Shown here piece by piece: positions 16,832 through 23,977 of a DNA stretch of 64,000 nucleotides; position 1 is the first letter of the stretch, and the number at the start of each line of letters is the position of its first letter. A model generated the notes under the pieces. The model had not been told where the DNA came from. It saw nothing but the letters and a program-made list of their open reading frames with translations, and did no database searches. A program made the position numbers and the translations under genes. The DNA is from Silvibacterium bohemicum. GTDB lineage: Bacteria; Acidobacteriota; Terriglobia; Terriglobales; Acidobacteriaceae. Where the stretch lies: the NCBI RefSeq assembly GCF_001006305.1, contig NZ_LBHJ01000012.1:222231-286230 (forward strand), written 5' to 3'.

Positions 16832-16865
16832 GGCTTTCGAGAGCTCGATGGGGAGAGCGTTTCTC

Positions 16866-16930
16866 AGGGGCTGAAGCCCTTTTGTTCGGCGTCGTTTACG
16901 GCATGGCTGAAGCCATGCCCTGATACGAAG
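16866..16930. repeat. GGCTGAAGCC palindromic element, copy 1
   Basis: Two near-palindromes, AGGGGCTGAAGCCCTT at 16866-16881 and GGCATGGCTGAAGCCATGCC at 16900-16919, are followed by CTGATACGAA. The same tail occurs in the copies near 32160 and 35325. It lies directly upstream of the cys leader region. Confidence 0.8.
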
Positions 16931-17016
16931 CTCGCGTCAGCCAGGAGCCATGTTTTGATACAGAGCCGGATTCACGAAACCTATTCGGATGAACCGCTGC
17001 CTGGCGGAGCTATCGA

Positions 17017-17046
17017 TTGACAAGCGGCCCGGAGTGGGCGAAGCTT
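17017..17046 (+). promoter_or_regulatory. Candidate promoter of the cys leader
   Basis: A perfect -35 hexamer TTGACA lies at 17017-17022. At 17-18 bases spacing the -10 position holds GAAGCT or AAGCTT, which is a poor match. If used, transcription would begin near 17052, leaving only about 14 bases before the leader peptide ATG. Confidence 0.35.
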
Positions 17047-17065
17047 TCAGTAGATGCAATTTGTG

Positions 17066-17134
17066 ATGCCAGTTCCGTCTTGCTGCCAGCTCCACTCCTG
17101 TTGTCGGGAGTGTTGTGTGCCCGCGAGGCTGTGA
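17066..17134 (+). CDS. Cysteine-rich leader peptide of the cys operon (22 aa)
   Basis: A 22-codon frame reads MPVPSCCQLH then SCCRECCVPARL and stop, giving six Cys in three adjacent pairs (codons 6-7, 12-13, 16-17). It lies 174 bases upstream of cysD on the same strand and is followed by an intrinsic terminator at 17188-17225. This is the layout expected of ribosome-mediated attenuation by charged tRNA-Cys. Its ATG overlaps the stop of a preceding 25-codon frame (16989-17066) as TGATG, so coupled translation is possible. No clear Shine-Dalgarno is seen. Cys-rich upstream frames controlling sulfur genes are known in mycobacteria; assignment here is inference. Confidence 0.7.
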   Translation: MPVPSCCQLHSCCRECCVPARL

Positions 17135-17187
17135 GCTCTGTATCTGACCTTCTAGACGCATCGTAGTTTCAAGCGATCCAGTCCCCG

Positions 17188-17225
17188 AGCCCACCGTCCT
17201 ATCTTCCAGGCGAGTGGGTTTTTTC
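17188..17225 (+). terminator. Attenuator terminator of the cys operon
   Basis: AGCCCAC (17188-17194) pairs with GTGGGTT (17214-17220) including one G-U. Past a single bulged A the stem continues CGTC with GGCG, giving about 11 bp, a 10-base loop and then a run of six T. A competing pairing uses 17127-17140 (GGCTGTGAGCTCTG), which overlaps the leader stop codon, against 17185-17198 with 11 of 14 positions paired. The two structures are mutually exclusive. Confidence 0.65.
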
Positions 17226-17308
17226 TGTTGCAGCAGAAAGTGCAACTCGTAGGGCAATCGGCCGTCACAGATAGCGACGGCATATCAACGTAGCGAGATA
17301 TCAACCTC

Positions 17309-18247
17309 ATGGCTCCAGCAGTTCTTACCGATGTAGCAGAACAACAAGCACCGCCGCTCAGCCATCTACAGCTGCTGGAAGCGGAGAGCATTCAGATCTT
17401 TCGCGAAGTCGCCTCCGAATTCGAGAAGCCGGTGATGCTGTACTCGATCGGCAAGGATTCGTCGGTGATGCTGCGGCTGGCGCAGAAGGCGTTTTATCCG
17501 GGACCGATTCCGTTTCCGCTGTTGCATGTCGATACCGGTTACAAATTTCGCGAGATGCTCGAGTTCCGTGACAAGCTGACGCGCGAGCTGGGGCTGGACC
17601 TGCTGGTGTGGCGCAATGAGGCCGCGCTGGCCGATGGCGCGAATCCGATTGCGCTGGGAACGCAGCGCTGCTGCGGGCTGTTGAAGACGACGGCGCTGCT
17701 CGACGCGCTGCGCTACTACGGCTTCGATGCCGCGTTCGGCGGCGCTCGCCGCGATGAAGAGAAATCGCGCGCCAAGGAGCGCATCTATTCCTTCCGCGAC
17801 AAGGCCGGGCAGTGGGACCCGAAGGCGCAGCGGCCGGAGCTATGGAACCTGTACAACTCGCGCATCGGCCCGGGCGAAAGCATTCGCGTCTTTCCGCTTT
17901 CGAACTGGACGGAGCTCGACATTTGGCATTACATCCATCTCGAAAAGATTCCTATCGTGCCGCTGTACTTTGCGAAGGAGCGCCGCATGCTGGTGCGCGG
18001 CGACAGCCTGATCCCGGTGGAGCAGCCGTTTGTGCAGGGCCTTCCGGGTGAGGAGCAGATGGTGCGCTGCCGCCTGCGCTCGCTGGGCTGCAGCCCTTGC
18101 ACCGGAGCGATCCGGTCCGATGCCGACACGCTGCCGAAGATCATTGCCGAACTGGTTTCGTTCCGCTCTTCTGAACGAGCGAACCGCATCATCGATCATG
18201 ACCAGGAAGGCTCGATGGAGATCAAGAAGCGCGAGGGCTACTTCTGA
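17309..18247 (+). CDS. cysD: Sulfate adenylyltransferase subunit 2 (CysD)
   Basis: A 312-residue PP-loop ATP pyrophosphatase subunit that, with CysN, makes adenosine 5'-phosphosulfate (APS) from sulfate and ATP in the cytoplasm. The PP-loop [17 protein letters not shown] lies at about residues 45-61; [14 protein letters not shown] and the [20 protein letters not shown] block are family signatures, and the C-terminal KKREGYF is typical. It is the first structural gene of cysD-cysN-cysH-tauE and overlaps cysN by one base (TGATG). A leader peptide with a terminator upstream suggests control by cysteine supply. Confidence 0.97.
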
Positions 18248-19881
18248 TGAGCGTAGCGGCGGCCATAGAATTCCAGGCGAGAGTATTAGAACCGGGAGAA
18301 ACCGAGCTGGATAGCTTCTCGATTGAAGACTTCCTCACGATCGAACAGGGCAAGGACCTGCTGCGCTTCACCACCGCGGGCTCCGTCGACGACGGCAAGT
18401 CCACGCTGATCGGCCGCCTGCTCTATGACTCGAAGAATGTTTACGAAGATCACGTGCGCGCCGTTACCCGCACCCAGGGCTCTTCTGCCGCGGCTATCGA
18501 TTTCGCTCAGCTTACGGACGGCCTGCGCGCCGAGCGGGAGCAGGGCATCACCATCGACGTGGCCTATCGCTACTTCTCGACTGCGCGCCGCAAGTTCATC
18601 ATCGCGGATACGCCGGGCCACGAGCAGTACACGCGCAACATGGCCACCGGCGCATCGACGGCGGACCTGGCCATCATACTTGTCGACGCGCGTAAGGGCA
18701 TTCTGAACCAGTCGCGCCGCCATGCTTACATCGCATCGCTGCTGGGCATTCCGCGCGTCATCGCGGCCATCAACAAGATGGACCTGGTGGATTATTCCGA
18801 AGCAGTCTTTCGCGATCTGAGCCGGGACTTCGCCGACCTTGCAGCGCGCGTGGGTTTGCGCAACGTCGATGCGATTCCCATCAGCGCGTTGGAGGGCGAC
18901 AATGTGGTCCACGCCGGCAGCCGTATGCCGTGGTATCACGGCCCGGCGCTGCTCGAGTATCTCGAGTCCACGCCTGTTCTGCGAGAGAGTGCTGCGCTGG
19001 CGTTTCGCCTGCCCGTGCAGCGCGTAATTCGCCCGAATCAAAACTTTCGCGGATTCGCCGGGCAGATTGCCGCAGGCACTGTGCGTCGCGGAGACCGCAT
19101 TGTCGCGCTGCCGTCGGGACATACCAGCCGCGTGCAGAGCATCGTGACCTTCGATGGCGAACTGGAGTCGGCATCTGCTCCGCTTTCGGTTACGGTGACG
19201 CTCGAAGACGAGCGCGACATCAGCCGGGGCGATTTGATCGCCGCTGCCGATGCACCGCCGCAGGTCGCGAATCACTTCGAGGCCGCGATTGTGTGGCTGC
19301 ACGCGCAGCCTTTGGAGATCAACCGCCGCTATCTGCTGAAGCACACCAGCCACACGGTTCCGGCGCGCGTCCGCTCCATTCGCCATCAGATCGATATCGC
19401 AAGCCTCGATCCTAAAGCGGCGTCGACGCTCGATCTCAACGCCATCGGGCTGATCGAAGTTGAGACGGATCGCCCGGTGCTCGCCGATCTGTACAACGAG
19501 AGCCGCGCGACCGGCAGCTTCATCCTCATCGATCCCGCGAGCAATGCGACCGTGGGCGCGGGAATGATCCGGCACATCCTTACGCGGACGAGCACCAACT
19601 CAGAACAGCCCAGCATCGTTATCGCGAAGGTTGAAATCCTTAAACAGCTTGAACAGCGCATTCTCGATCTCGGCCATGCCGTCGTTCGGACTCGTGTTCA
19701 GGATGAAAAAGTATGGCGCGCCCTGCAGCATGCGGGTGTGACGGTGCTGGTGGAGAGCGATCAACCCACGATTCAAATCGTCGATGCGGACTTCACTCGC
19801 CGAGAGATCAAAGACGAATCGATCGAGACCATAGTGGATGCGCTGAGCTTTGCAGCGAAGGTCGAGGAGAAGGAGCTATGA
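18247..19881 (+). CDS. cysN: Sulfate adenylyltransferase subunit 1 (CysN) with extra C-terminal domain
   Basis: The GTPase subunit of ATP sulfurylase, with the P-loop GSVDDGKSTLIGRLL (about residues 45-59), the DTPGHEQYTRN switch and NKMDLVDYS. GTP hydrolysis drives APS synthesis by CysD. At 544 residues it is about 70-100 longer than stand-alone CysN. The extension (roughly 440-544) begins after ATVGAGMI. It has a segment reminiscent of APS kinase (LEQRILDLGHAVVRTRV) but no Walker A motif, so it may be a degenerate CysC remnant or a lineage-specific domain. Overlaps: TGATG with cysD and ATGA with cysH. Confidence 0.95.
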   Translation: MSVAAAIEFQARVLEPGETELDSFSIEDFLTIEQGKDLLRFTTAGSVDDGKSTLIGRLLYDSKNVYEDHVRAVTRTQGSSAAAIDFAQLTDGLRAEREQGITIDVAYRYFSTARRKFIIADTPGHEQYTRNMATGASTADLAIILVDARKGILNQSRRHAYIASLLGIPRVIAAINKMDLVDYSEAVFRDLSRDFADLAARVGLRNVDAIPISALEGDNVVHAGSRMPWYHGPALLEYLESTPVLRESAALAFRLPVQRVIRPNQNFRGFAGQIAAGTVRRGDRIVALPSGHTSRVQSIVTFDGELESASAPLSVTVTLEDERDISRGDLIAAADAPPQVANHFEAAIVWLHAQPLEINRRYLLKHTSHTVPARVRSIRHQIDIASLDPKAASTLDLNAIGLIEVETDRPVLADLYNESRATGSFILIDPASNATVGAGMIRHILTRTSTNSEQPSIVIAKVEILKQLEQRILDLGHAVVRTRVQDEKVWRALQHAGVTVLVESDQPTIQIVDADFTRREIKDESIETIVDALSFAAKVEEKEL

Positions 19882-20597
19882 GCACTGTGAGCGCGCCGTT
19901 ATCGACACTGGACGAGAAGATTGCGGAGGCAGCCGCGCTGATTCGCAGTAAGCTGCAGGCTCATAGCGGCGACGCCTGCGTGACCAGCAGTTTTCAGGCG
20001 GAGGATGTCGTCGTTCTTCATCTGGTGCGCCAGATTGCTCCCGAGATTCCCGTGCTCTTCCTCGATACCGGTTACCACTTTCGTGAAACCTACGAATATC
20101 GCGATCGCATTGCGGCAGAGTGGCGATTGAATCTCAAAAACATTCTGCCAGTGAAGACGGTCGCGGAGCAGGAGGCGGAGTTCGGCATCCTCAATCGAAC
20201 TGCACCCGACCGCTGCTGCGCGCTGCGCAAGGTTGGTCCGCTCTTCGCTGCGCTTGAGCCTTATGCTCTCTGGTTCACTGGGCTGCGCCGTCAGCAGGCG
20301 AAGACGCGCGCCAACTTGCAGGCGGCGGAGAGCTTTACGCTGCCGACAGGCAAGGATCTGCTCAAGCTGAGCCCGCTTGCCGATTGGCATACACGCGATG
20401 TGTGGCAGTATGCCGAGCGCCACGCGATCCCGCTGCTGTCGCTCTATGATCGCGGCTACTCCAGCATCGGATGCGAGCCTTGCACCAGCCTGCCGCTCAG
20501 CTCCGACGATCCGCGCTCCGGCCGCTGGGGTGGAAACAAGGTCGAGTGCGGCATTCATATTCAACCCGCAGCCGGCAGCCACGCGGAAGGACACTAG
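19878..20597 (+). CDS. cysH: Assimilatory adenylyl-sulfate (APS) reductase, CysH family
   Basis: A 239-residue reductase that converts APS to sulfite. The paired cysteines Cys113-Cys114 (DRCCALRK) and Cys199/Cys202 (IGCEPC) form the ligand set for the [4Fe-4S] cluster that marks the APS-using branch. The catalytic Cys224 lies in the terminal ECGIH motif. This agrees with the absence of a functional APS kinase in the operon. The start at 19878 overlaps the cysN stop (ATGA); a longer upstream frame exists but lies inside cysN. Confidence 0.93.
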   Translation: MSTVSAPLSTLDEKIAEAAALIRSKLQAHSGDACVTSSFQAEDVVVLHLVRQIAPEIPVLFLDTGYHFRETYEYRDRIAAEWRLNLKNILPVKTVAEQEAEFGILNRTAPDRCCALRKVGPLFAALEPYALWFTGLRRQQAKTRANLQAAESFTLPTGKDLLKLSPLADWHTRDVWQYAERHAIPLLSLYDRGYSSIGCEPCTSLPLSSDDPRSGRWGGNKVECGIHIQPAAGSHAEGH

Positions 20598-20606
20598 GCT
20601 CACAAG

Positions 20607-21449
20607 ATGGAACTGGCGATCGGCTTCCTCATCGCGTTTGTCATTGCCATCACCGGCGTCGGAGCCGGCACCATCACTGCGCCTCTGCTGATCCTGGCGC
20701 TGCATGTGCCGATTGCGGTGAGCGTGGGCACGGCGCTGGCCTACTCGACCGCGGTGAAGGCGGTGGTGGTTCCGCTGCAGATATGGCGGCGGCAGATTGC
20801 CTGGCGGGTGCTGGGCGTGATGCTGATCGGCGGGCTGCCGGGCGTGATCGTGGGCACGCTGCTGTTCAAACGCTTCGGCGCGCTCAGGGGCCACGCGTTC
20901 TTTTTCGGAGCGCTGGGCACGGTGATCGTCTTCTCTTCGGCGTGGCACCTCTTTCGATACTTCCGCCCGCAGGCACTGCCGGGGCGGCAGCCGGCGCGCA
21001 TCAAGAGCATCGGCGCGCTGATGTTTCCCATTGCCGCCGAGGTGGGCTTCTCGTCGTCGGGCGCGGGCGCGCTGGGATCGTTGGCGTTGATGAGCCTGTC
21101 TCCACTGAACGCGGCGCAGGTGGTGGGCACCGATCTAGCCTTCGCCTTCTGCGTAACGCTGATCGGCAGCGGCCTGCACTTCGCCGATGGCAGCATCGAC
21201 AAGGGACTGCTGCTGCGGCTGGTGATCGGCGGACTCATCGGCGCGGTGGCCGGGTCGATCGTCGCGCCGCGCGTGCCGAATCGGCAGCTGCGGCTGGCTC
21301 TCTCGGTGGTGCTGCTGGCTCTGGGACTGCAGTTTTGCTATCAGGCGGTGGCGAAGCAGCTGGCTTCGCATGCTGTGCCGGTGCAGGCGGCGAAGGTGCA
21401 GACGAAGACGCTGGCATTGGCGCAGGTGGCTGGCGGCCGTGTGCGTTGA
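20607..21449 (+). CDS. TauE/SafE-family membrane permease
   Basis: A 280-residue inner-membrane protein with about eight hydrophobic segments and the internally repeated TauE/SafE layout (GVGAGTITAPLLIL near the start and VGFSSSGAGALGSLALM in the middle). It starts nine bases after cysH and ends the operon. Family members export sulfite, sulfoacetate or related anions, or import them. Its place after APS reductase suggests sulfate uptake or export of excess sulfite. No other sulfate transporter is in the window. Confidence 0.85.
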   Translation: MELAIGFLIAFVIAITGVGAGTITAPLLILALHVPIAVSVGTALAYSTAVKAVVVPLQIWRRQIAWRVLGVMLIGGLPGVIVGTLLFKRFGALRGHAFFFGALGTVIVFSSAWHLFRYFRPQALPGRQPARIKSIGALMFPIAAEVGFSSSGAGALGSLALMSLSPLNAAQVVGTDLAFAFCVTLIGSGLHFADGSIDKGLLLRLVIGGLIGAVAGSIVAPRVPNRQLRLALSVVLLALGLQFCYQAVAKQLASHAVPVQAAKVQTKTLALAQVAGGRVR

Positions 21450-23260: not shown

Positions 23261-23340
23261 AAGCGTTGGGTTCTTCTTCAAACAAGGTGAGTTTGTCTTC
23301 AAACACATTGCGTACTTCTTCAATCACACGGGGTTTCCGT

Positions 23341-23376
23341 AAAAACAAAAGAGCCCGCGATCTTTCGCGGGCTCTT
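23341..23376 (-). terminator. Intrinsic terminator of the secreted 193-aa protein gene
   Basis: A 12-bp perfect stem, AAGAGCCCGCGA at 23349-23360 with 23365-23376, has a 4-base loop. Read on the minus strand it is followed by TTTTGTTTTT, a clear U-tract. It lies 20 bases after the stop of the gene ending at 23396. Confidence 0.9.
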
Positions 23377-23395
23377 CGAGTGATCCAGTTCCAAA

Positions 23396-23977
23396 CTACT
23401 CGGCCGAGGTTGAGGCCTGCGCCGACTGTGCGCCGACGGCGACCAGGAGCTGCGTTCCTGCTCCGAGGCTGATGTTGCTGCGGCTGTCGGTGAACGTTGC
23501 TGACGACTTATCCTGCACCGAGCTGTGCAGCGCGACGCCGGTTGCTCCGCCAGCTACCTGATCGAAGGTGGCGTGCGGATCGACGGCGGCAGGCAGCTGC
23601 TCTGTGTCACCAGCGGCCGCAAAGGCGGCGACGGTGGCCTTGATGGCGATGGTCTTACCGTCCTTCAAGTGAGCCTGGTAGAAGGTGAGAGTCAGAGTCG
23701 ATGGTCCCTTGTTGTCAGAAGCCTTGACTTCGTCGACGCGTCCGAGCAGCTCTGTGCCGCGCGGCAGTTCTACGCCTTCTGCAGTCTTGATGGTTCCGGT
23801 AAGCTTCACCGCTACAGCCTGACCTTGCGTGGCCGACTTGGTGCTCAACGCGCGAATCAATTCCGTGTTTCCAGCTATAAGCTTTACGCCTTGGGATTGT
23901 TCCTGCGCCATTGCAAGACCTGAAAATGCAACAACGGCAGTAGCAAATGCGAGGGTACCCGCTTGAAATCGCTTCAT
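23396..23977 (-). CDS. Secreted protein of unknown function (193 aa)
   Basis: A 193-residue protein with a signal peptide (FATAVVAFSGLAMAQ, to about residue 25). The mature part is predicted to be mostly beta-strand, with KLTGTIKTAEGVELPRGTEL and VKASDNKGPSTLTLTFYQA, followed by a Gly/Ala/Ser-rich C-terminus. The TAEGVELPRGTELLGRV segment resembles a short beta-barrel often seen in acidobacterial exported proteins. I do not recognise a named family. It is monocistronic with its own terminator. Confidence 0.75.
   Translation of the reverse strand: MKRFQAGTLAFATAVVAFSGLAMAQEQSQGVKLIAGNTELIRALSTKSATQGQAVAVKLTGTIKTAEGVELPRGTELLGRVDEVKASDNKGPSTLTLTFYQAHLKDGKTIAIKATVAAFAAAGDTEQLPAAVDPHATFDQVAGGATGVALHSSVQDKSSATFTDSRSNISLGAGTQLLVAVGAQSAQASTSAE

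Follow-up and report, generated by a model that had tools for sequence, protein, structure and literature searches.

A predicted cysteine-specific transcription attenuator upstream of cysD in Silvibacterium bohemicum, with similar leaders in other Acidobacteriota

Leader peptides containing cysteine were predicted by Seliverstov et al. (2005) in Mycobacterium, Propionibacterium acnes and Bifidobacterium longum; there, terminator hairpins were reportedly not conserved, and Rho was put forward (PMC1262725). In mycobacteria, cysteine-responsive leaderless polycysteine frames were described by Canestrari et al. (2020; doi 10.1111/mmi.14498, as far as its available record goes), and the available passages of later papers cite them as translation attenuation. 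A recent example of a leader-peptide transcription attenuator, according to the accessible text of PMC13236596, is that of ilvB1 of M. tuberculosis. In the open-licence PMC literature, we found no report of cysteine attenuators from Acidobacteria, although this does not prove that none exists. Lopatovskaya and colleagues surveyed attenuation comparatively in 2010 and may have predicted such an element.

Here, we analyzed a 64,000-nt stretch of the S. bohemicum genome (the window), in which cysD, cysN, cysH and a gene for a TauE/SafE-family permease are all encoded on the plus strand (Table 1). The permease gene is probably a member of the cysD-cysN-cysH operon, and a search for a PF00916 sulfate transporter found none. 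As judged by cysD, the best named relative is Granulicella sp. dw_53 (86%). The region upstream of cysD (16832-17308) very probably carries a trp-type ribosome-mediated transcription attenuator specific for cysteine, which would sense charged tRNA-Cys. Elsewhere in the window, at 23288-23401, weak sub-threshold Rfam matches to MicC and, on both strands, to Leu_leader were seen, which probably represent a chance hairpin.

Table 1. Predicted regulatory elements and genes of the cysD locus (window coordinates).
Feature	Position	Strand	Basis
-35 box TTGACA	17017..17022	+	sequence; TTGAC spacing in relatives
Putative -10 GAAGCT, poor match	17040..17045	+	17-nt spacing from -35; inferred
Cys-rich leader frame MQFVMPVPSCCQLHSCCRECCVPARL and stop (predicted)	17054..17134	+	sequence; Cys richness conserved in relatives
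Three Cys-Cys codon pairs, presumed sensing codons	17081..17119 (17081-17086, 17099-17104, 17114-17119)	+	sequence
Antiterminator strand (region 2), overlaps leader stop 17132-17134	17127..17138	+	nascent fold, genus pairing
Region 3: terminator 5' arm, also partner of region 2	17187..17198	+	folding, genus pairing
Intrinsic terminator (predicted): stem 17187-17221, T-run 17219-17224	17187..17224	+	folding energy, shuffles, genus pairing
cysD, sulfate adenylyltransferase small subunit	17309..18247	+	TIGR02039, 449.7 bits, above cut-off
cysN, sulfate adenylyltransferase large subunit	18247..19881	+	TIGR02034 above cut-off
cysH, (phospho)adenylyl-sulfate reductase	19875..20597	+	NF002537 and TIGR00434 above cut-off; start codon inferred
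tauE, TauE/SafE-family permease	20607..21449	+	PF01925, 120 bits; without NCBIfam match

The original prediction placed a frame of 22 codons at 17066-17134. The frame with its three Cys-Cys pairs is indeed present, while its start had to be moved upstream: position 17066 is the second in-frame ATG, and the first one, at 17054, which gives 26 codons, is retained by the genus relatives at a similar distance behind TTGACA. Because this ATG comes only 37 nt after the box, the leader transcript is predicted to be nearly leaderless, with transcription starting at about 17051-17054, i.e., at the usual promoter spacing. The best -10 match at the allowed spacings reaches 2 of 6 positions. As this element is poor and the terminator stem is bulged, a strict consensus scan of the window reported neither a promoter nor a terminator at the cysD leader. 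The spacing recurs among relatives: TTGAC is found 33-44 nt upstream of the leader start in 31/44 cysD loci with leader and terminator (43/880 shuffles) and in 38/53 loci of a second gene, the reductase gene discussed below (46/1060 shuffles), with median distances of 37 and 36, respectively. Among these TTGAC-scored loci, a Shine-Dalgarno-like core precedes the leader start in 0/31 cysD and 2/38 reductase cases. Together, the promoter-to-ATG spacing and the missing Shine-Dalgarno core predict, from sequence, a leaderless start. The strict test was used in place of a relaxed one (5/6 matches, distance 24-49), which was uninformative (44/107 leaders vs. 542/2140 shuffles).

Cysteine codon usage sets the leaders apart from the genes behind them. 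In 107 cysD leaders, counted from the first possible start and including some of the named-contig loci L020-L032, TGT occurs 480 and TGC 204 times, vs. 12 and 206 times in the cysD genes, which are partial for many loci. The respective figures are 188 and 100 for the reductase leaders and 13 and 285 for the reductase genes.

A cysD match at E<=1e-60 was obtained in 153/300 genomes of the family Acidobacteriaceae, and our family set comprised 133 cysD loci from 131 genomes (9 genus loci plus 24 and 100 further regions). We searched the 330 nt upstream of cysD for frames no longer than 50 aa that contain 4 or more Cys in 10 aa; all starts were tried, controls were held to the same rule and loci L020-L032 were excluded as possible duplicates. 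Such frames precede cysD in 82/133 loci, compared with 2/133 on the reverse strand and 27/1330 dinucleotide shuffles; at the level of at least 5 Cys in 10 aa, the counts are 46 forward and 0 reverse in the 133 loci and 1/1330 shuffles. This confirms that the Cys frame is far more frequent than expected by chance. Allowing all starts also caught the leader of L006, whose frame is open further upstream. Apart from Cys, the leader peptides have little in common except inside clades (first scan of 145 loci, L022 being too short). In 29/133 loci the density falls below 3 Cys in 10 aa. Seven of these (L009, L136, L138, L151, L156, L170, L171) have Cys residues spaced as in the CC-LSNIFDGC clade described below. 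Of the remaining 22, 9 have an open frame of at least 70 codons, a candidate gene, that ends at most 100 nt upstream; the operon may there begin with a gene other than cysD. Two relatives encode a tRNA ahead of the cysD leader, on the minus strand (L195:320-393 and L211:285-358).

Across the phylum, cysD was matched in 67/297 genomes, 42 of them outside the family, and 30 loci from 27 of these 42 were sampled. Frames with at least 3 Cys in 10 aa were found in 8/30 forward and 2/30 reverse stretches, and in 6/30 loci (L339, L340, L344, L345, L354, L369) a Cys-rich frame is followed 29-46 nt later by a terminator of -19.4 to -22.7 kcal/mol. These six loci belong to two other families of the phylum, and their terminators are GC-rich. 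Of 67 loci from other phyla and distant groups (L033-L099), which were compared for frames only, 8 have 4 or more Cys in a frame no longer than 80 aa, and on visual inspection none of these was convincing.

The original prediction also described a bulged stem of about 11 bp with a T-run at 17188-17225. Both exist, and folding redraws their extent (Table 1). The stem has an energy of -16.6 kcal/mol (z -3.42; 1/200 shuffles equally stable), and its positions are paired in 97.2% of 72 cells among six genus members. Terminators of -14 kcal/mol or lower with a T-tract follow the leader in 41/122 loci, i.e., of those among 146 loci that have a Cys cluster or Cys pair, vs. 3/732 shuffles. They are concentrated in the clade of the window's cysD and mostly missing in the CC-LSNIFDGC clade and several others.

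The latter clade deserves separate mention. In an alignment of 21 of its loci (e.g., L021, L138, L145, L173), the RNA upstream of cysD is highly conserved and lacks a strong terminator. It contains a hairpin inside the frame (CCTGTCGAA/TTCGACGGG), and an invariant GGGTG that can pair with a downstream CACCC (93.8% of cells paired, covariation none); as this helix hardly varies, covariation is uninformative here. The GAGG before cysD is also predicted to engage in a short pairing (4 pairs, 0 with two-sided change). The element may represent a Cys leader that has been rebuilt or that acts in another way.

A helix competing with the terminator had been proposed between 17127-17140 and 17185-17198, with 11 of 14 positions paired. 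The helix held up on reanalysis in a somewhat smaller form, with 10 pairs between 17127-17138 and 17187-17198 (17127-29/17196-98, 17131-33/17192-94 and 17135-38/17187-90). When 16-nt leader windows were scored for duplex energy with the terminator 5' arm in 47 loci, the values peaked at -26 from the leader end (-13.1, compared with -10.0 for composition-shuffled windows) and fell to about -3 beyond the stop. The pairing tests excluded L142, L160 and L170, reducing the 47 loci to 44, of which 31 were left once near-identical loci had been removed. The antiterminator strand pairs better with the 5' arm of its own locus than with those of others (matched mean -14.1, mismatched -11.7 kcal/mol; 0/20,000 permutations as low), while the 3' arm control shows no such preference (-10.1 vs. 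-10.9, p 0.99). When the leader stretch is dinucleotide-shuffled for comparison, the loci have a mean z of -1.49, with 13/31 (42%) at p<=0.05. Permutation within k-mer clusters retains the result for cysD (0/10,000) and for the reductase gene (0 and 0.0003), although for cysD it controls kinship only mildly, since the clusters are very uneven and most loci fall into one.

Within the genus, 98.3% of the 60 cells of the competing helix, from six members, are paired, vs. 28.3-53.3% when it is slid. Two-sided change was seen in 1/10 pairs (C-G to U-A, two sequences), 8/10 pairs never vary, and the covariation score was reached by 94/500 shuffles. As genus covariation is weak, the strong evidence for the antiterminator comes from between clades. 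Thus, the alignment of cysD upstream regions suggested by the original prediction bears out the Cys frame, the terminator and the helix, but compensatory change within the genus is confined to that single pair. The comparison of loci supports an antiterminator that uses the 5' arm of the terminator and thereby excludes it.

The geometry of region 2 is consistent with a strand that a ribosome at the stop would cover and that a ribosome stalled at Cys codons would leave exposed. Its median position from the leader end is -27 to -11 in cysD and -26 to -11 in reductase leaders, and 226/292 and 235/288 Cys codons, respectively, lie upstream of it. In the window, region 2 contains the leader stop, which comes earlier than in the relatives. 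The protecting 1:2 hairpin has a mean z of -0.63 (se 0.21) for cysD and -0.82 (se 0.21) for the reductase gene, which supports it weakly. In nascent folds with a stalled ribosome, the antiterminator is the lowest-energy structure in the window and is also obtained in L003, L004, L005 and L007; matched arms exceed swapped ones modestly (0.616 vs. 0.527 for cysD, 0.589 vs. 0.484 for the reductase gene). A full-leader equilibrium fold of the window showed no switch, with the terminator at 0.92 when the ribosome is stalled and 0.915 when it is at the stop, and with region 2 engaged in a hairpin with the spacer. Across loci, equilibrium folds have the stall lowering the terminator by more than 0.3 in 9/44 cysD and 8/52 reductase cases, and never the reverse. 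Since attenuation is kinetic, this outcome is neither a refutation nor a proof.

We found the same arrangement before a second sulfur gene. The S. bohemicum genome encodes a NirA-like sulfite/nitrite reductase (L254, G000:C4:735314-737017; below NCBIfam cut-offs, above those of Pfam), preceded by a frame ending in PAVCCPACCPMLSRTCA and a stop, the complementary pair GCTGAGC/GCTCAGC and a terminator (GCCCACCATCGCCGGTGGGTTTTTT). With TTGCCC as its -35-like box, this locus is absent from the TTGAC counts. In the stretch examined for the other NIR_SIR match of the genome (L256), no frame reaches 3 Cys in 10 aa. A tighter Cys-leader pattern occurs at 2 places in the genome and misses the window's own leader because of the longer gap of the latter; in the genus it retrieves leaders adjoining the reductase gene of two members (G001, G005), with similar sequences in two others (G003, G006). 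The reductase gene was detected at E<=1e-100 in 95/150 family genomes, and 70 loci (30 plus 40) were sampled. At least 4 Cys in 10 aa were found in 44/70 loci on the forward and 0/70 on the reverse strand (10/700 shuffles), and in 53/70 a leader (at least 2 Cys in 10 aa) is accompanied by a terminator within 70 nt. After removal of near-identical loci (33 of 53 kept), pairing was again locus-specific (matched -12.1, mismatched -10.4, 0/20,000 permutations; 3' arm control p 0.87). The finding for cysD is thus reproduced at a second, unlinked gene. The presence of its own Cys leader and terminator favors a sulfite rather than nitrite reductase role for the NirA-like protein.

Under the attenuator reading, transcription would begin at ATG 17054 or a few bases upstream, and a ribosome would initiate on the nearly leaderless frame. 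With ample Cys-tRNA it would reach the stop at 17132-17134 and cover 17127-17138; the terminator at 17187-17221 would then fold and the polymerase halt before cysD. A ribosome stalled at the Cys codons would leave 17127-17138 free to pair with 17187-17198 once made, and this pairing would block the terminator, so that cysDNH is transcribed. The element is thus probably an RNA off-switch that stops the expression of sulfate assimilation when cysteine is plentiful. The comparison across loci shows the Cys frame, the box-to-start spacing, the terminator, the locus-specific pairing and the second copy; translation of the leader, stalling, termination and a cysteine response are predicted. The original prediction of an attenuator is accordingly well founded as a candidate, given how widespread the Cys frame is, the locus-specific pairing in 31 divergent loci and the recurrence before a second sulfur gene. 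Against it stand the equilibrium fold, the modest advantage of matched arms in nascent folds, the minority of loci that outdo their shuffles individually, the weak genus covariation, the poor -10, the early stop, the weakly supported 1:2 hairpin and the clades whose Cys leader has no strong terminator.

Among the alternatives, the one that survives best, though we regard it as unlikely, is that translation or Rho mediates most of the effect of the Cys leader, as has been proposed for Actinobacteria, the terminator being secondary; stalling would then expose the cysD ribosome-binding site or exclude Rho. Actinobacterial Cys leaders are reported, in the accessible part of PMC1262725, to lack terminators, and the available text of PMC13236596 describes mycobacterial ones as translation attenuation; moreover, many Acidobacteriaceae loci carry the leader without a strong terminator, and the GAGG pairing before cysD is predicted in the CC-LSNIFDGC clade. 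Yet, the window and its clade combine the terminator with a locus-specific antiterminator pairing, and a terminator with matched pairing also precedes the reductase gene.

We consider it highly improbable that the frame encodes a functional Cys-rich micro-protein, binding metal or acting in redox, that lies upstream of the operon by accident. Cys clusters resemble metal-binding motifs, but the peptides are alike in little besides Cys, the rare TGT codons are preferred in the leaders, the last part of the frame is complementary to the terminator arm, and the same kind of frame is found upstream of the unlinked reductase gene. Even less credit is due to an undescribed riboswitch or other protein-free aptamer governing the terminator, with the Cys frame incidental. 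A terminator with an alternative fold ahead of a sulfur operon does look like such elements; however, leader and terminator are separated by only a short spacer that genus members conserve poorly, and no Rfam covariance model of known riboswitch or T-box families matched the leader in the window (E<=1) or, at gathering scores, 14 relatives, where only tRNA was matched. A random Cys-rich frame with an ordinary terminator can be dismissed, for although the pattern TGYTGY-TGYTGY is common in the genome (492 places vs. 245 for the reversed pattern), this explanation is refuted by the excess of Cys frames over the reverse-strand and shuffled controls, the promoter spacing and the pairing tests, each for both cysD and the reductase gene.

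Returning to the attenuator reading, it may extend to a cysteine attenuation regulon of Acidobacteriota, in which nearly leaderless TGT-rich leaders would drive terminator/antiterminator switches on sulfate and sulfite assimilation, and in which one clade would have rebuilt its sensor into a conserved RNA without a strong terminator, the output being changed and the sensor kept; we see this wider proposal as evenly poised. It predicts cysteine-responsive genes in common soil bacteria, and a nearly leaderless start joined to classical attenuation raises the question of how a ribosome without a Shine-Dalgarno sequence keeps step with the polymerase.

Compared with known systems, the cysD leader shares with trp/his/leu-type attenuators a leader rich in the regulated amino acid, a terminator, and an antiterminator 5' strand that would be covered by the ribosome at the stop. 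It differs from them in that the amino acid is cysteine, the start is predicted to be nearly leaderless and a Shine-Dalgarno-like core is missing in 31/31 cysD and 36/38 reductase loci scored. The leaders of Seliverstov et al. (2005; PMC1262725) are likewise short frames that contain runs of Cys codons and lie upstream of cys or cbs operons; there, however, the runs lie near the stop, whereas here most Cys codons precede region 2. With the mycobacterial polycysteine frames, as they appear in the available record (Canestrari et al., 2020) and in citing papers, it has in common contiguous Cys codons, an association with cysteine-metabolism operons and a (nearly) leaderless start, predicted in our case. 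Those frames are cited as controlling translation, while in this other phylum the evidence points to a terminator/antiterminator switch; translational control that dispenses with a terminator, as the available passages of the citing papers define it, does not describe the window, which has a terminator. The Acidobacteriaceae leader is thus best likened, in its features, to trp in its predicted way of working and to the mycobacterial frames in its type of sensor. What is new relative to the actinobacterial Cys leaders, reported in the accessible part of PMC1262725 to lack terminators, is the terminator/antiterminator switch behind a Cys leader.
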